A stretch of 64,000 nt of DNA, taken from assembly GCA_015229115.1 (NCBI GenBank), contig JADGCH010000009.1:1-64000 (forward strand), written 5' to 3'. A program made the position numbers and the translations under genes. The notes under the pieces were generated by a model that was given only the letters and a program-made list of their open reading frames with translations, was not told where the DNA came from and did not search any database. Positions 20,691 through 29,147 of the stretch are shown piece by piece. The stretch comes from Magnetococcales bacterium (GTDB lineage: Bacteria; Pseudomonadota; Magnetococcia; Magnetococcales; JADGCH01). Position 1 is the stretch's first letter. Every line of letters starts with the position of its first letter.

Positions 20691-22526
20691 GTGACTAAAC
20701 GATGGTTATCGATCTCTTTTACCCATGGGCATGTAGGCGTTGGTCTTGTTGCCATACTGTTCTTGATGGCGTTGTTTGGTGGTTTTGCCCTGTGGCAAAC
20801 CAATCAGATTGCCGGGCTCACCGTACGACTTTACACTCATCCTTTTGCCGTCAGTAACGCTACTCTTCGTATCCAGCTCTCCCTATTGCGTATACACCAT
20901 CTCCTGACTGAAACCATCCTGCTTGACCAGAAAAACCTTTTGCCAAATGATTTGCGGGATGAGATTGAGCAGGAAGAGCAGGCCATCTTGGAGGATTTTT
21001 CTCTCATTCAGGAGCGATTTCTGGGAGACAAGGAAGATGTGATGCGTGCTACCCAGAGTGTCATGGCGTGGCATCCTGTAGTGGATCATATTCTGGCGTT
21101 GCTTGAGAAGGGAGACTACGTCGGGGCCAAGCAGCTCATGAAAACGCGGGAAGCGGTACAGATGGCGGAAATCTCCACGCAAACCAAAGCTATAGAGCTG
21201 TTTGCTAGAGCTAAAGCGGCTGATTTTTATAGTAAATCTCAAGATCTTCAGAATAGTGCCTTTATCAATAGTCTGGAATTGATTCTGGCGACACTGTTTC
21301 TCAGCAGCGTCATTGCTGTCGTTCTATTTCTGAAAAATGCTGCCACCGAGCAGGCCTATCTTGCCAGTCAACAGGCGTTTAGGGAAAGCGAGCGATTTAC
21401 CCTGTCAGCGATTGATGCCATTTCCTCGCATCTCTGTGTTCTTAATGAGCAGGGTATCATCATAGCGACTAACCAGTCCTGGCGCGATTTTTCCCGCAAT
21501 TATGCCTGTGATGCCGCGGGGTTGGGTGAAGGCAGCAACTATCTAACAGTCTGTGATGCGGTACAGGGAGAAGACCGTGTTATTAGTCAAGCGGTGGCCG
21601 ATGGTATCAGGGCTGTATTGTCTGGACAACAACAAGATTTTTCGTTTGAATACTCCTGCCCAGTACTTGAGGAGGTTATGTGGTTCATGTTGCGTGTAAC
21701 CCGGTTCCATGGCGATGGTCCTTGTTTTGTTACCGTGACGCACGACAACATTACCGAGATTAAGCGGGTTGAGGAATTGCTGAGAAACGTTAACAAGCTG
21801 CTGGAAGAACGTGTGCAACAACGTACACGCGAGCTGGAACGTTCCAATCAGGATTTGCAGCAGTTTGCCTATATTGCATCACACGATTTACAGGAACCCT
21901 TACGTCAAATAAGCGGATTTGCCCAGCTGCTTAAACGACGTTATCATGGTCATATGGATAGCAAGTCAGACCAGTTTATTGATTATATGGTTGAAGGTTG
22001 CCAACGTATGGTCAATATGATCAACAGTCTGTTACATTATTCCCGTGTCAGTACACATGGCATTGATTTGCGTCCCATCACGGTTGAGACCTTGCTGGAG
22101 CGTGCCCAGATAAATCTCTTGACAAAAATCAATGAAACTGAGACAGTGATCACACGGGATGTGCTGTCAGTGACGTTGTGGGGTGACGAGCAGCAATTGT
22201 TGCAACTCATGCAAAATCTTCTAAGCAATGCCATCAAGTTTTGCCAGCTTGGTCAGAAGCCCCGCATTCACGTTTCAGTTCAGCGGCAGGGGAATGACTG
22301 GGTGGTTTCGGTGCAGGATAATGGCATCGGCATTGAGTCCCAGTATGCTGACCGTATTTTTGTCATTTTTCAGCGGTTGCACCTGCGAACAGAATTTGAT
22401 GGTACCGGGATTGGGTTAGCCGTCTGCAAGCGTATTATCGAACGCCATAATGGTCGGATCTGGTTTACTTCCGAACTTGGTCAGGGAAGCACCTTTTCTT
22501 TTTCCTTACCCAGCCAGGGAGGTTGA
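20691..22526 (+). CDS. Membrane sensor histidine kinase with PAS domain, first gene of the Kai cluster
   Basis: A 611-residue kinase starting at GTG 20691 (start uncertain; no strong ribosome-binding site). TM1 is VGLVAILFLMALFGGFALW; a periplasmic helical bundle of about 160 residues rich in Leu/Glu follows, like chemoreceptor four-helix sensor domains; TM2 is LILATLFLSSVIAVVLFL. A PAS domain (AIDAISSHLCVLNEQGIIIA) precedes a HisKA domain with His398 in YIASHDLQEPLR and a complete ATPase (LLSNAIKF, QDNGIGIE, GTGIGLAVCKRI). The dimerisation motif is of the phytochrome-like type often paired with Rcp1-like regulators, and exactly such a gene follows directly. Confidence 0.88.
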   Translation: MTKRWLSISFTHGHVGVGLVAILFLMALFGGFALWQTNQIAGLTVRLYTHPFAVSNATLRIQLSLLRIHHLLTETILLDQKNLLPNDLRDEIEQEEQAILEDFSLIQERFLGDKEDVMRATQSVMAWHPVVDHILALLEKGDYVGAKQLMKTREAVQMAEISTQTKAIELFARAKAADFYSKSQDLQNSAFINSLELILATLFLSSVIAVVLFLKNAATEQAYLASQQAFRESERFTLSAIDAISSHLCVLNEQGIIIATNQSWRDFSRNYACDAAGLGEGSNYLTVCDAVQGEDRVISQAVADGIRAVLSGQQQDFSFEYSCPVLEEVMWFMLRVTRFHGDGPCFVTVTHDNITEIKRVEELLRNVNKLLEERVQQRTRELERSNQDLQQFAYIASHDLQEPLRQISGFAQLLKRRYHGHMDSKSDQFIDYMVEGCQRMVNMINSLLHYSRVSTHGIDLRPITVETLLERAQINLLTKINETETVITRDVLSVTLWGDEQQLLQLMQNLLSNAIKFCQLGQKPRIHVSVQRQGNDWVVSVQDNGIGIESQYADRIFVIFQRLHLRTEFDGTGIGLAVCKRIIERHNGRIWFTSELGQGSTFSFSLPSQGG

Positions 22527-22991
22527 ATGGAACCACAGGATGAGCGGTCGATCGTTATTTTACTGGTTGAAGACAGTCCATCAGATGTAGCCCTGACCCG
22601 GGAGGCCTTGCTGGAGAGTGGTATACGCAACCAGCTGTGCGTGGTGACCGATGGTGAGGCAGCGTTGGATTTTCTGTATGGCCGTGGGGCCTACGCCCTG
22701 TCACCAAGGCCGGATTTGGTGTTGCTTGATCTCAATTTACCCCGCCGTAATGGTCGCGAGGTATTGCAGGAAATCAAGGCAGATGCCAAGTTGAAGACCA
22801 TTCCTGTTGTGGTGCTGACCACTTCGCGTGATGAAACAGAAATCCTGTATACCTATCAGCTCCACGCCAACTGCTATGTTACCAAGCCGGTTGACCTCGA
22901 CAAGTTTTTCTATGTGATTCGTTCCATTGGTGAATTCTGGTTTACGGTGGCAAAGCTTCCCGTCGCAAAACAGGGAAACCTTGTTGTTTAG
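22527..22991 (+). CDS. Rcp1-like single-domain response regulator
   Basis: A 154-residue receiver of the Rcp1 type, longer than Che[18 protein letters not shown] is the acidic pocket, [17 protein letters not shown] has the phosphorylated Asp, [10 protein letters not shown] the switch Thr, and [11 protein letters not shown] the Lys. The ATG follows the kinase stop without a gap, so kinase and regulator are translationally linked and probably cognate. There is no output domain, so it must act by protein contact, perhaps with downstream Kai-associated proteins; that link is inference. Confidence 0.9.
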
Positions 22992-23006: not shown

Positions 23007-23891
23007 ATGAGTGTTGTTCAGGACGTACCGGTTCCAGTATTGCTCATTGAGGATGATCTACCGTTTGGTCTATTGCTGAGCGAGTGGTTGGATGAGAGCA
23101 ACAGGGACGATGCTCTGGTTGGCGGAGTGTCGCGTCTGCAACTGGAGTCAGTCCCAACCTTGGCCCTAGCGATCCGGCGACTTGAGCGGGGTGATGTCGC
23201 CGCTGTAGTGGTGGACCTTAACTTGCCAGACAGCCAGGGTATGGCCACCTTTGATCAGTTACAGGAGGTATGTCCTCATATCCCTATCGTGGTGCTCTCA
23301 GGGATCAATGACGGCAGCATTGCCCTGCAGGCAATGCGGCGTGGCGCCCAGGATTACCTGATCAAGGCCCATGTCACCGGTTTGCTGTTATCGCGTGCGG
23401 TCCGGTATGCCATTGAACGACACAACCTACAACAGGAGTTGTTGCGCATTCAGGGGTCAGCCCGGCGAGAACAGGAACGACAGTTTCTTGATCGGTTTAC
23501 CCATCGCAGTGCTGTTTCAGCTTCGATGTTGGGGGTTCCATCACTGAGACAGGGGTTACCGGACCTGTTCCAAAATTTTATTGACCGATTCGATGACGTA
23601 CTTGAACGGGCCATGGAACAGCGATCTTATAAGGTATCCCAGGTTGAGTATATATCCGATGTACTTCTTGTGTTGGCGCGGGATTTAAGTTTTCTCAAAT
23701 GCGGTCCGCGTGATGTGATCGATATCTACATGGAGGCGCTGTCACGCAAGGATGGCCTGTTTAATCCGATCAAGACACAGGCTTACAGCGAGGAGGGGCG
23801 GCTGCTGAGTCTGGAACTGATGGGGCAGCTGGTGCTGCAATATCGTCCCTATGCCCTCGGAACGGGCAGAAATTATTCCGGTGTGGAGTGA
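23007..23891 (+). CDS. Receiver domain protein with KaiA/RsbU-N-like C-terminal domain
   Basis: 294 residues from ATG 23007. Residues 1-130 are an intact receiver (Glu15-Asp16-Asp17, Asp70 in [11 protein letters not shown], switch Ser98, Lys120 in YLIKAH). Residues about 175-282 are all-helical and show the pattern of the KaiA C-terminal/RsbU N-terminal four-helix bundle: a first helix ending in an alternating charged segment, then [13 protein letters not shown], comparable to VLEIHVEL in cyanobacterial KaiA, and a final helix [14 protein letters not shown] comparable to the KaiA terminus. Its place directly before kaiB and kaiC strongly supports a role with KaiC. This architecture matches the KaiA3-type proteins described in cyanobacteria. 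The C-terminal assignment is inferred from pattern, not alignment scores. Confidence 0.7.
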
Positions 23892-23934: not shown

Positions 23935-24225
23935 ATGGTAGAATGCAATAAATATCTGTTAAAGCTCTACGTTACGGGGCACACTCCCCGCTCCCAGCAT
24001 GCCATCAGCAATTTGCGCCGAATTTGTGAGGGTGAGCTGGCAGGCCATTACGAGATGACAGTCATCGACATACTGGAACATCCAAGTCTGGCTGAGGATG
24101 AGAAAATTCTGGCAACGCCGACCCTGATTAAAGTCCTTCCGAGCCCGATCCGAAGAATTATCGGTGACCTTTCCGATACGGAAAAGGTGTTGTTCGGGCT
24201 GGATTTGCAGCCGCTCCACCGTTGA
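23935..24225 (+). CDS. kaiB: Clock protein KaiB
   Basis: A 96-residue KaiB with a thioredoxin-like fold. ATG 23935 is chosen because AAAGGA lies nine bases upstream and the product then starts just before the family signature; the frame is open to 23851, inside the preceding gene. Signature segments are [20 protein letters not shown], the [19 protein letters not shown] region containing the conserved cis-proline, and [18 protein letters not shown]. Known KaiB switches fold to bind KaiC and to sequester KaiA. Gene order here is KaiA-like, kaiB, kaiC with 43-base gaps. Confidence 0.95.
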
Positions 24226-24268: not shown

Positions 24269-25786
24269 GTGAACAAGCAACATCAGGAAGCCCCTGTAGC
24301 CAAATTACTGACAGGCATTGACGGGTTCGATCTTATTGCCCAGGGTGGTTTGCCCAAAGGACGAACGACCTTGCTGGCAGGAACGGCTGGCAGTGCCAAG
24401 ACTGTATTTGCCGCACAGTTTCTGGCTGAGGGGCTTCGTAAACACGACGAAAATGGTGTTTTTGTCACCTTTGAGGAACCTCCTGCTGACATTCGCCGCA
24501 ACATGCTCTCCATGGATTGGGATATCCAGCAGTGGGAAAGCGAAGGTAGATGGGCCTTTGTTGATGTGTCACCACAGCCGGAACTGGAACAGATCGAAGC
24601 CGGTGCTTTTGATCTTGGCGCTCTGCTGGTGCGCATTGAGCACGCCATCCACAAGGTTGGAGCCAAGCGGGTAGCCATCGATTCTCTCGGAGCGGTCTTT
24701 TCGCAGTTTCTCAACTCAGCCATGGTGAGGGAGGAGCTGCGGCGTCTTGGTGCTGCCTTGCGGGGCATGGGCGTTACGGCTGTGATGACTGCCGAAAGAA
24801 CCCAGGAGTATGGCGAAATTGCCCGTTTTGGTGTTGAGGAATTTGTCGCTGACAATGTTGTCATCCTGCGTAATGTGTTGGAAGATGAAAAAAGGCGCCG
24901 CACGGTAGAAATACTCAAATTTCGCGGTACAACCCACCAAAAAGGTGAGTATCCGTTCACAGTGCTTCCGGACAGTGGCATCATTGTTATTCCCCTGTCA
25001 GCCATTGAGTTGAAACAACGATCTTCTGATCGTCGTGTTTCTTCTGGTAACGAAGAGTTGAACCGGCTTTGTGGAGGAGGATTTTTCCAGGACTCCCTGA
25101 TCCTGGTCTCCGGTGCTACCGGTTGTGGTAAAACATTGATGACAGCCGAATTCATTGCAGCCAGTGCCAGTCGGGGTGAACGCAGCCTGCTGTTCGCTTA
25201 CGAGGAAAGCCGTGAGCAGCTGTTTCGTAATGCGCGTGGCTGGGGGATCGATTTCCAGCTGTATGAACAGCAGGGGTTGCTGCGCGTCATTTGCGCTTAT
25301 CCGGAAAGTGCCGGTCTGGAAGATCATCTCATCCAGATCAAGACCGAGATTGATACCAGCAAACCGCGACGGATCGCCGTCGATAGTGTTTCCGCTCTGG
25401 AGCGAGTTTCCACCAACCGTGGCTTTCGTGAATTCATTATCAGTCTGGCCTCATTTGTCAAACAGCGAGAAGTGCCTGGACTGTTTACGGCGACCACAGC
25501 CAATCTGATGGGGGGACCCTCCATCACGGAATCACACTTTTCCTCGATCACGGATACCATTATCCTATTGCGCTATGTGGAAATGCTGGGAGAGATGCGC
25601 CGTGGTATTACCGTGTTGAAAATGCGCGGTTCTATGCATGAGAAGGATATCCGTGAGTTTATCATTGACAGTCAGGGCATGCACATTGGCAAGCCATTTC
25701 GCAATATCATCGGGATCCTGTCTGGCAAGCCAGAGTACGTTTCTTCTGGCGATGCAGAGCGTATTGGACGACTGTTCAAGGAGTGA
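24269..25786 (+). CDS. kaiC: Circadian clock ATPase/kinase KaiC
   Basis: A 505-residue double-RecA protein. The C1 Walker A reads G38-TAGSAK-T45 (Ala43 in place of the second Gly), with paired catalytic glutamates in FEEPPADIRR. The C2 Walker A is G282-ATGCGK-T289, with YEESREQLFR as its Glu pair. The autophosphorylation site aligns as T420, S425, S426 in TESHFSSITDT: Ser-Ser rather than the Ser-Thr of cyanobacterial KaiC1. LLRYVEMLGEMRRGITVLKM and the C-terminal RNIIGILSGKPEY follow; the A-loop tail to which KaiA would bind is present but shorter than in Synechococcus. Neighbours encode kaiB and kinases. Confidence 0.95.
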   Translation: MNKQHQEAPVAKLLTGIDGFDLIAQGGLPKGRTTLLAGTAGSAKTVFAAQFLAEGLRKHDENGVFVTFEEPPADIRRNMLSMDWDIQQWESEGRWAFVDVSPQPELEQIEAGAFDLGALLVRIEHAIHKVGAKRVAIDSLGAVFSQFLNSAMVREELRRLGAALRGMGVTAVMTAERTQEYGEIARFGVEEFVADNVVILRNVLEDEKRRRTVEILKFRGTTHQKGEYPFTVLPDSGIIVIPLSAIELKQRSSDRRVSSGNEELNRLCGGGFFQDSLILVSGATGCGKTLMTAEFIAASASRGERSLLFAYEESREQLFRNARGWGIDFQLYEQQGLLRVICAYPESAGLEDHLIQIKTEIDTSKPRRIAVDSVSALERVSTNRGFREFIISLASFVKQREVPGLFTATTANLMGGPSITESHFSSITDTIILLRYVEMLGEMRRGITVLKMRGSMHEKDIREFIIDSQGMHIGKPFRNIIGILSGKPEYVSSGDAERIGRLFKE

Positions 25787-25819: not shown

Positions 25820-26848
25820 GTGTTGGGTAAGAATACCTGCCGTGCGATCGTCGAGAACAACGTCGATGGCATTATGGTGGTTGACCGTTGTGGTTTGGTC
25901 CGTTATGCCAATCCGTCGGCGATCATGCTGTTTGGTCGTGGGGCACAGGGAATACTGAACCAGGAATTGGGGTATCCTCTGGTTGCCGGAGAAAGTGCTG
26001 AACTGGACATCGTTCATACAGACCGACAGCATTTTGTTGCTGAATTGCGCACCACGGAAATCGTGTGGGAAGATGATGAACGCGCTTTTCTGGTGTCGCT
26101 GCGTGATATTACAGAACGACACTGCTTGCTTGAGCAGCTGAAAGATGCCTTGCATACGGCCGAGACCTCCTTCCGTTCCAAGGAGCGATTTCTTTCCAGC
26201 GTAAGTCATGAATTGCGCACTCCCCTGAATGCGGTTATCAGCTTGGCTAGGCTGTTACTGGACGGGGCCATGGGACCGCTCAACGTGACTCAGAAGAATT
26301 TTTTACGCGATGTGCTCGACAGTGGCCAACATCTGCTGAGCAAGGTCAGTGACATGCTGGATCTGGCCGACATGGAATCTGGCCAATGCTCCATCAGCCA
26401 TAAACCCGTTTCAGTGCGCATCCTGCTGGCCAATGTCTTGCGGGCCTTGCGCAGTCATGCCGTTGAAAAAGGGATTCAATTTACAACCAACTGGGTTTCC
26501 GTACCAAAACTGATCAGTACTGATGAATGGTTGCTGGAACGCATGGCCTACAATCTGTTGTATCATGTTGTGCAACAGACACAAAAAGATGGAACGGTTC
26601 ATGTGGTAGCCTGCCAGACGTATCGGAATACCAGTACCTCTGTGACCGAAAAATTCCTGTTGCTATCGGTGACGGGTCAACGGAACATGGATGAGAGCCA
26701 GACTGTTGCCGATCCTGATTCCATGGGTCATGATCTTGGCATGAATCTGGTCCAGAAAATGGCTGGGTTGCTTGGTGGACGGGTTTGGGTTGAAAAACCG
26801 GTCCATCAACAGGGGCACACTTTTCACGTCGAAATTTTATTGGCCTGA
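25820..26848 (+). CDS. PAS histidine kinase with degenerate ATP-binding domain
   Basis: 342 residues from GTG 25820, seven bases after gagagg. Residues 8-105 are a PAS domain ([20 protein letters not shown]). HisKA follows with His130 in [14 protein letters not shown]. The C-terminal ATPase region is recognisable but eroded: the N-box reads [15 protein letters not shown] without the usual Asn-rich motif, no DxGxG box is evident, and only a [16 protein letters not shown] segment resembles the G2 box. It may be phosphorylated by another kinase or act as a scaffold. It is 33 bases after kaiC. KaiC-linked PAS kinases occur in other proteobacteria. Confidence 0.8.
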
Positions 26849-26876
26849 AACAGGAATATGGGAGAGGGCTGTGGTG

Positions 26877-29147
26877 ATGCCACAAGGAACAATCTCGGTA
26901 TTGCTGGTAGAGGATAATCCATCTGATTCTGCCATGCTGCAGGAGTGCCTGAAACAGGCCGTCCCATCGCTGTCTCGCATAGAGCATGTCGGGTCTCTTG
27001 CGACGGCACTGGCCTGCATGCAGCAACAACCGTATCAGCTTGTGCTGCTCGATTTAAATCTGCCGGATAGTACTGGTCTTGAAACACTGCGGCGTTGTCG
27101 TTCCCAGGATTCCAGACTGCCTGTGATCGTCCTAACCGATGAGTCTCATGTTGAGTTAGCGACCTTGGCTGTGCGTGAGGGAGCGCAGGATTATCTGGTT
27201 AAGGAATCAATCGATTGGGGTGATTTTTCTGGTAGAATGTTGCACATGGCCATCGATCGCAGCTACTTTCATCAGGTTCTGGAACAAAGTCGACAAAGTT
27301 TCCGTAATATTGTCGACAATAACAGTGACGGTATTCTGGTCGTCGATATACGTGGTTTTGTCCGTTTTGCCAACCCAGCCGTTACCAAGCTATTTGCCGG
27401 TCACCAGATTCATCCGGGTGATCTGTTCGGTTATCCTGTGGCGGCCAATGATGCCACTGAACTGGATATTGCGCCATTCGGCATGGCTAGGTGTGTGGCA
27501 GAAATGCGTGTTGCTCGGACGGAATGGGAAGGAGAGGAAGTCTTTCTAGCCTCCCTGCGTGATATTACGATACGCAAAAAACTGGAAGAGGAGCTGTGGC
27601 GTGCCAAAAAGGAGGCTGAAATGGCCAATCACGCCAAAAGTGCTTTTCTGGCTGTCATGAGTCATGAGATTCGTACACCGGTGTCGGCTATCGTTGGCCT
27701 GTCTGACCTGCTGGAGGAGACCAGTCTTGACACCGAGCAGCGGGAGTTTGTCAACTGGTTGCGTGAGTCAAGCAGCGTATTATTAAACTTGGTCAACGAT
27801 ATTTTGGATCTTTCCAAGGTTGAGGCCGGTGAGCTGCGTCTGGAACGTGCCGAGTTTGGTTTGGCTGATCTGCTGCAAAGTGTTTCTCATGTCATACAGC
27901 CGCGTGTTACCGAAAAGGGGCTGAAATTTGATTGTGTTACCGGTACGGGATTGCCCGCTCTATTGGAGGGTGATGCGGCAAGGTTGCGACAGATTCTACT
28001 CAATTTGCTCAGCAATGCTGTTAAATTTACAGATTATGGAGGAAGTATTACTCTAAGAGTTGATCAATATCAGAGAAATACAGAAACAGCTGGATTGCGC
28101 TTCACGGTCACCGATACCGGTATTGGCATTGCACCCGACAAACAGGAGCAGGTCTTTGATGATTTTGTCCAGGCCGATTCATCCATCGCCAGGCGCTATG
28201 GTGGCACGGGCCTTGGTTTGGGCATTAGTAAGCGGTTCGTTGAACTGATGGGGGGTACCATTGGTTTGACTTCCAGCGAGGGAGAGGGTAGCAGCTTCTA
28301 CATCAACGTTGACTTGCCTTTGGCGAGAAAACGATCCACTGGGGTACCGGATCATCATCCAGCCAAGCTCCGTGAACCTGATCAGGCGCAGTTAAGTGGT
28401 CGACGGGTGCTTCTGGTGGAAGCCAATTCAATCGAGCGTTTGTTGATCACCAAACTTCTGACCAGTTCCGGCCTGTTGGTGGAGGAGATCCCTGTCTGGC
28501 GTGATGGATTAACATTGCTGCATGAGGCGCGCGTTCGTAGCCTTCCTTTCCATTTGCTGATCATTGGCAGTGAGCGAAACGGTTTCAGTACTACAGATAT
28601 GCTGAATGACCTGCAACAGACCGATGCCTATAATGGACAGCCCGTACTGATACTGGACTCTGAACCATTGCTTAAAAAAGAGGAATTCATCAGTGTTCTC
28701 AACTATTTGTCGTTGACAAAACCCGTTGAAAAAGATCGATTCATGACCGCAGTGACTCAGGTGATTGCGCTGGGGAAGTCGCTGCGTATCTTGCTGGTGG
28801 ATGATTCACCAGAAATACACATGATCGTACGGGCCTTTCTCAATCACGGATTGCATCACATCGAAACGGCTAAAAATGGCTACGAGGGTGTGGAACAATT
28901 CAAAAAGGGCCGTTTTGATCTGGTATTGATGGATTTACAGATGCCAGGGATGAATGGGGTTCAGGCGACGAGGGCCATTCGTTCCTGGGAACAGCAACAG
29001 CAGCGGCATCGGGTACCCATTCTGGCATTTACGGCTGCCACTCAGAAAGATGAGTCGGCTTGGTTGGATGCTGAGTGCGACGGATTTGTCGCTAAACCCA
29101 TCCGCAAACAGAAGTTTCTTGATACCATCAGTCGTTATGCCTTGTAG
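26877..29147 (+). CDS. Hybrid histidine kinase (REC-PAS-HK-pseudoREC-REC)
   Basis: 756 residues from ATG 26877, eight bases after gggagaggg. The N-terminal receiver ([32 protein letters not shown]) precedes a PAS domain similar in sequence to that of the previous gene ([18 protein letters not shown]), a HisKA with His263 in [14 protein letters not shown], and an intact ATPase ([35 protein letters not shown]). A second receiver-like fold ([13 protein letters not shown]) lacks the acceptor Asp, and a final canonical receiver ([31 protein letters not shown]) follows. Last gene of the Kai cluster. Confidence 0.9.

Follow-up and report, generated by a model that had tools for sequence, protein, structure and literature searches.

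A receiver protein with a KaiA-like C-terminal domain encoded directly upstream of kaiB and kaiC in Magnetococcales

Descriptions of Kai systems from bacteria other than cyanobacteria usually list KaiBC but no KaiA; the literature on magnetotactic bacteria terms them kaiBC-based (PMC10278575). In cyanobacteria, KaiA acts via the A-loop and the C-terminal tail of KaiC (PMC11372060, PMC5520375). The kind of system considered here is already known, namely KaiA3, which has the same architecture and synteny. KaiA3 of Synechocystis, described in 2024, drives KaiC3 phosphorylation cycles and has also been reported in a few other bacteria, including Rhodospirillum and Bradyrhizobium; Magnetococcales are unnamed in that paper, which notes that a histidine kinase could feed KaiA3 and that its identity is still missing (PMC11372060).

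The window, that is, the whole 64,000-nucleotide stretch of Magnetococcales DNA analyzed here, contains a gene (23007..23891, + strand) for a 294-residue protein that resembles KaiA3 as described. A receiver with a conserved Asp is joined to a KaiA-like C-domain within about 294–299 residues, and the gene sits directly upstream of kaiB and, usually, kaiC. The system differs from that of KaiA3 in that the partner KaiC carries Ser-Ser, not Ser-Thr, at the CII site, and in that a kinase-regulator pair precedes the gene. With canonical KaiA (1r8j, 5c5e, 1q6a), the protein shares a receiver-like N-terminal domain, a C-terminal bundle whose last two helices align, including to LDYRLTLIDVIAHLCEMYR, and adjacency to kaiBC. 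However, KaiA has a pseudo-receiver devoid of the phospho-Asp, whereas the receiver here is intact, and the C-domain stays below the Pfam KaiA threshold. A related bundle with weak profile similarity is found in the N-terminal domain of RsbU (2j6y, PF08673); the protein differs from RsbU in its kai gene context, in the absence of a PP2C phosphatase domain, and in that RsbU scores below KaiA. In Cereibacter (Rhodobacter) sphaeroides, too, a histidine kinase accompanies kaiB and kaiC, but the KaiC2 of this species, which ends in a long tail, is 38% identical and lacks an annotated KaiA-like neighbor. In the literature searched, we found no description of the Magnetococcales family, its conserved kinase-regulator pair, the Ser-Ser KaiC partner, the second kai set (kaiA'B'C') or the PAS-fused form presented below.

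The gene cluster and the predicted protein

The KaiA-like gene, which was delineated by its open reading frame, Pfam, AlphaFold2 and a family profile, and which could also start at a TTG four codons farther upstream, belongs to a tight run of genes on the same strand, spaced by no more than about 45 nt. The run opens with a histidine kinase (20691..22526, +), in which Pfam recognizes a 4HB_MCP sensor-like region, HisKA and HATPase_c, and which is the candidate input kinase. It is followed by its apparent partner, a 154-residue stand-alone response regulator (22527..22991, +; Pfam Response_reg, 2.3e-18) that ends 16 nt before the KaiA-like gene. Directly downstream of the latter are kaiB (23935..24225, +; Pfam KaiB, 7.8e-29, and NCBIfam) and kaiC (24269..25786, +; 505 residues with two KaiC ATPase domains; TIGR02655, 648 bits, above cut-off). 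A longer kaiB reading frame from 23851 overlaps the KaiA-like gene; KaiB homology begins near the ATG at 23935. A PAS histidine kinase (25820..26848, +; Pfam) lies 33 nt downstream of kaiC, and the run ends with a REC-PAS-kinase-REC hybrid (26772..29147, +, counted from the first possible start), which was assigned by reading the sequence, with a tool match for its first receiver only. Of the three kinases in the cluster, the one upstream is paired with a regulator encoded next to it.

The earlier note had proposed a receiver with D70 and K120, and this is borne out. Pfam Response_reg (5.6e-12) is the sole assignment above cut-offs, and the domain spans residues 9–122 (23031..23372, +) by Pfam, invariant positions and AlphaFold2. 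Furthermore, the alignment shows E15, D16, D70 (23214-23216, +) and K120 (23364-23366, +) to be invariant in 19 family members, giving the protein a receiver with a phospho-Asp as in KaiA3. The receiver is followed by a long predicted linker helix (residues 125–175; 23379..23531, +; AlphaFold2) and a KaiA-like four-helix C-terminal domain (approximately residues 179–287; 23541..23867, +; family profile, models and Foldseek), within which the motifs quoted earlier are present at residues 235–245 and 269–280. The AlphaFold2 model, computed from a 19-sequence alignment (mean pLDDT 86), shows a receiver fold, the linker helix and a helical C-terminal region with helices at 185–207, 216–229, 234–246 and 254–283. 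Modeled alone, the C-domain reached a pLDDT of 87.6 and a pTM of 0.80.

With the full model, Foldseek matched full-length KaiA (4g86) at 8e-6 across both domains, a match partly carried by the receiver. With the C-domain alone, several KaiA chains were retrieved at TM 0.5–0.6, none of the matches fell below E 0.001, and unrelated helical bundles ranked level with or above KaiA. The predicted structure thus agrees with kinship to KaiA but is not decisive, and the fold match of the C-domain by itself is modest. Taken with the profile and the AlphaFold2 helices, it supports a KaiA-like four-helix bundle as in KaiA3; the outcome that would have contradicted the earlier note, a C-terminus with a fold related to neither KaiA nor RsbU, did not arise. 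Two other identities were dropped. A Gag_p24_C match (E 0.0008–0.0024) was put down to chance, being below cut-off, 29 residues long and confined to two of 17 members, and a DHp/HisKA identity for the C-domain found no Pfam support.

As for the receiver within its own genome, its nearest relative (43%, E 7e-24) is in L060:5814-6899(+) on contig C98 of genome G000, apparently behind a cyclic-nucleotide-binding-like N-terminus. The second-nearest is the N-terminal receiver of the hybrid at 26772..29147.

Kinship and distribution of the C-terminal domain

The resemblance of the C-terminal segment to KaiA and the RsbU N-terminus, suggested earlier from the sequence, is supported, with KaiA above RsbU, and is detectable only with a family profile. 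Direct phmmer searches with the C-domain and with profile A2, built from close members only, did not find KaiA, and the KaiA scores of A2 were not distinct from those of shuffles. The more diverse profiles, A3 (26 sequences) and A5, behaved differently. When A3 was run against 177,635 PDB sequences, the best seven were KaiA, at E 0.08–0.17 each, from three cyanobacteria (Thermosynechococcus, Nostoc/Anabaena and Synechococcus), which amounts to about one observation because these KaiAs are homologous; the best seven for A5 were likewise KaiA. As a control, each KaiA and RsbU sequence (the KaiA query being identical to 5n8y, the RsbU query differing from 2j6y by one residue) was shuffled 5000 times with its composition kept. 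The A3 scores for KaiA of 16.5, 14.6 and 14.1 bits were reached by 0, 1 and 0 of the 5000 shuffles, respectively, and those of A5 by none. RsbU scored 8.6 bits, about half of the 14–17 bits of KaiA, and was above nearly all its own shuffles. Profile-profile alignment with hhalign gave E 0.001–0.004 for KaiA (0.0031 with one KaiA; 0.00095 for A5 against three KaiAs) and 0.02 for RsbU.

In a library of 24,736 models, Pfam KaiA was the best family for five kaiA' paralogues (E 0.02–0.08), and two members from a second class of the phylum matched RsbU_N (E 0.11–0.14). In direct Pfam comparison, the window protein had no match to KaiA (PF07688), and no member passed the gathering cut-off of 22.2 bits, the best relative reaching 15.5; for RsbU_N (PF08673), the best relative reached 13.2 bits against a cut-off of 25.5. 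Nor was a PP2C phosphatase domain detected by Pfam. The resemblance to KaiA nevertheless exceeds chance: the C-domain is conserved across Magnetococcia, and its A3 and A5 scores beat the shuffles.

With the C-terminal 149 residues as the query, matches were obtained in 17 of 48 Magnetococcia genomes, and the profile search added three (G028, G029, G030), so that 20 of the 48 carry a KaiA-like gene; given the relatedness of the sampled genomes, these counts cannot be treated as independent. A Magnetococcales MAG (L001; 67% identity) holds the nearest named relative. The second class, which we infer to be Alphaproteobacteria, has the family in six of 337 sampled genomes; genomes of this class in which the domain occurs are G392, G453, G530, G829, G796, G700 and G672. 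The gene order is mostly histidine kinase, response regulator, KaiA-like gene, kaiB, kaiC. On longer loci, tblastn found the order from regulator to kaiC both in the main loci of Magnetococcales, most of which have the kinase upstream, and in the second class (G392, G453, G530 and G829); the KaiA3-type position directly upstream of kaiB-kaiC is thus shared by relatives with sufficient contig. All 20 Magnetococcia genomes with the KaiA-like gene carry a KaiC at least 53% identical to that of the window, and no complete KaiC of this type was found in the other 28 (in G007, KaiC is reduced to decayed fragments, and the sole KaiC of G025 is 37% identical). On plasmids, tblastn with KaiA and with a second-class C-domain returned no matches, and the annotated KaiC neighborhoods of Sphingobium, Aquisphaera and Rhizobium plasmids contain no KaiA-like gene.

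Several variants were encountered. Seven genomes (G047, G022, G027, G028, G029, G030 and G031) have a diverged kaiA' with its own kaiC' and usually also kaiB'; in G022, this set is about 8 kb from the first. In G047, the two sets stand in tandem, kaiA-kaiB-kaiC and then kaiA'-kaiB'-kaiC' (L057:5037-9491), and the first KaiC, a single open frame of 352 residues matching residues 4–58 and 224–505, looks as if most of its CI domain were deleted, or reflects an assembly error. At L059 (G027), L090 (G030), L091 (G028) and L092 (G029), a window-like kaiB persists beside kaiA'-kaiB'-kaiC', and the matching first-set kaiA and kaiC were not seen there. Many Magnetococcales loci, though not the window, have a second small KaiB-like gene after kaiC, about 40–45% identical to the window KaiB (L047:4169-4486(-), L048, L050, L052, L055). 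In G672, the protein encoded immediately upstream of kaiB-kaiC (L108:4385-6001(+)) has its KaiA-like C-domain preceded by two PAS domains and a receiver-like region that is degenerate; Pfam detects only the PAS domains, and the usual Asp/Lys signature is not seen by eye in the receiver-like region. Finally, L105:5240-6124(+) in G796 has kinase, regulator and KaiA-like gene with neither kaiB nor kaiC in the vicinity, and the genome yielded no KaiC at E 1e-80. The KaiA-like domain there possibly has a different target.

The partner KaiC and its tail

By core identity, about 58% to KaiC1 of T. elongatus and 38% to Rhodobacter KaiC2, the window KaiC is on the KaiC1/KaiC3 side. Its CII phosphosite reads HFSSITD (Ser-Ser), as in 14 other main Magnetococcales KaiCs, while HISTITD (Ser-Thr) occurs in KaiC' and in most second-class KaiCs, including those of G392, G453 and G530. 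Ser-Thr is dominant in KaiC1 and KaiC3 (PMC5520375). The Ser-Thr pair, a trait reported for the KaiC3 partner and not for KaiA3 itself, is absent from the window KaiC.

The window KaiC retains a C-terminal tail, ERIGRLFKE. All 24 KaiCs examined that adjoin a REC-type KaiA-like gene (15 main Magnetococcales, five KaiC' and four second-class) have a tail where KaiA binds; it extends 16–27 residues past the G-x-P column and carries [ML]F at the same place close to its end. By comparison, only 2–12 residues and no [ML]F motif follow that column in five KaiCs of 49–63% core identity that have no KaiA-like gene upstream of kaiB. These are from G660, G823 and G151, which lie within the genome sample where the profile found no KaiA-like gene, and, as controls, from the Sphingobium and Aquisphaera plasmids. 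The association of tail and KaiA-like neighbor has a Fisher p of 0.008 in the non-Magnetococcales set and 8e-6 overall, the true significance being weaker because the sequences are related. The exception is the diverged KaiC (38%) beside the PAS-fused member in G672, which has no tail motif. This co-retention lends indirect support to an interaction between the KaiA-like protein and KaiC.

Proposed mechanism, alternatives and implications

We consider it likely that the gene product is an activator of KaiC similar to KaiA3, with a histidine kinase signaling into its receiver, and that it forms, with KaiB and KaiC, a candidate three-component KaiABC module. By analogy with KaiA and KaiA3 of cyanobacteria, the C-terminal four-helix domain probably dimerizes and holds or pulls out the KaiC C-terminal tail, which would stimulate KaiC by favoring its autophosphorylation until KaiB binds. 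D70 is probably phosphorylated by a histidine kinase of the same cluster, and the effect, transmitted along the long linker helix, would be to raise or lower the KaiA-like activity. Because the receiver, unlike that of KaiA, keeps all catalytic residues, phosphorylation is likely to be the switch. Control by the upstream kinase is plausible given the intact receiver and the conserved kinase-regulator pair. The three proteins together would make up the KaiABC module, which may in turn generate a 24-hour rhythm.

The C-domain could instead be an RsbU-N-like module that binds a GHKL-type kinase, for example one of the neighboring histidine kinases, and not KaiC, with the kai genes as mere neighbors. 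RsbU_N has the same fold as the C-domain of KaiA (PMC11372060), two members match RsbU_N, RsbU itself scores above nearly all its shuffles, and the kinase-regulator-KaiA-like arrangement exists in G796 with no kaiBC nearby. We nonetheless regard this reading as unlikely, given a KaiA score nearly twice that of RsbU, the strict co-occurrence and adjacency with kaiBC in Magnetococcia, and a KaiC tail retained only beside the KaiA-like gene. A plain response regulator, with a helical dimerization or adaptor domain serving a kinase-regulator pathway and a merely convergent helix pattern, appears very improbable: the top PDB sequence matches are all KaiA, composition-keeping shuffles do not reach the KaiA scores, and linkage to kaiB recurs in two classes, even if individual E-values are weak, Foldseek with the C-domain places generic helical bundles high, and no Pfam family matches the C-domain above cut-off.

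A further possibility, to which we give serious weight while holding it to be somewhat short of an even bet, is that the protein acts on KaiC as proposed, but in a module that works as an hourglass timer or stress switch instead of sustaining its own oscillation. Such a module would leave the molecular side of the KaiA3-like reading intact and would call into question only the term "clock". In its favor, kinases abound in the cluster, Rhodobacter has a known KaiBC hourglass (work cited in PMC11372060), and the KaiC site is Ser-Ser, unlike the Ser-Thr that dominates in KaiC1 and KaiC3 (PMC5520375); on the other hand, the KaiC is on the KaiC1/KaiC3 side (58% vs 38% core identity) and keeps the tail through which KaiA acts. 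Returning to the KaiA3-like activator, we would extend it only tentatively, and with more doubt than confidence, to the view that full KaiABC oscillators exist in Magnetococcales and some Alphaproteobacteria, that a two-component kinase gates their KaiA step via a true receiver, that the KaiC of Magnetococcales is dual-serine, and that the KaiA module is also mounted on other sensors, as in the receiver-like region plus PAS-PAS form of G672.

For Magnetococcia, the KaiBC-only reading would change with a KaiA-like partner that has diverged too far for Pfam to recognize, and the conserved kinase-regulator pair offers a concrete candidate for the kinase that could feed KaiA3. Whether a KaiABC clock exists outside phototrophs becomes a testable question, with three purified proteins and one kinase. 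Because a gene for a switchable form of KaiA adjoins kaiB and kaiC, the host, a non-cyanobacterial relative of magnetotactic bacteria, may possess all three parts of a KaiABC timer, with an input for signals built in.
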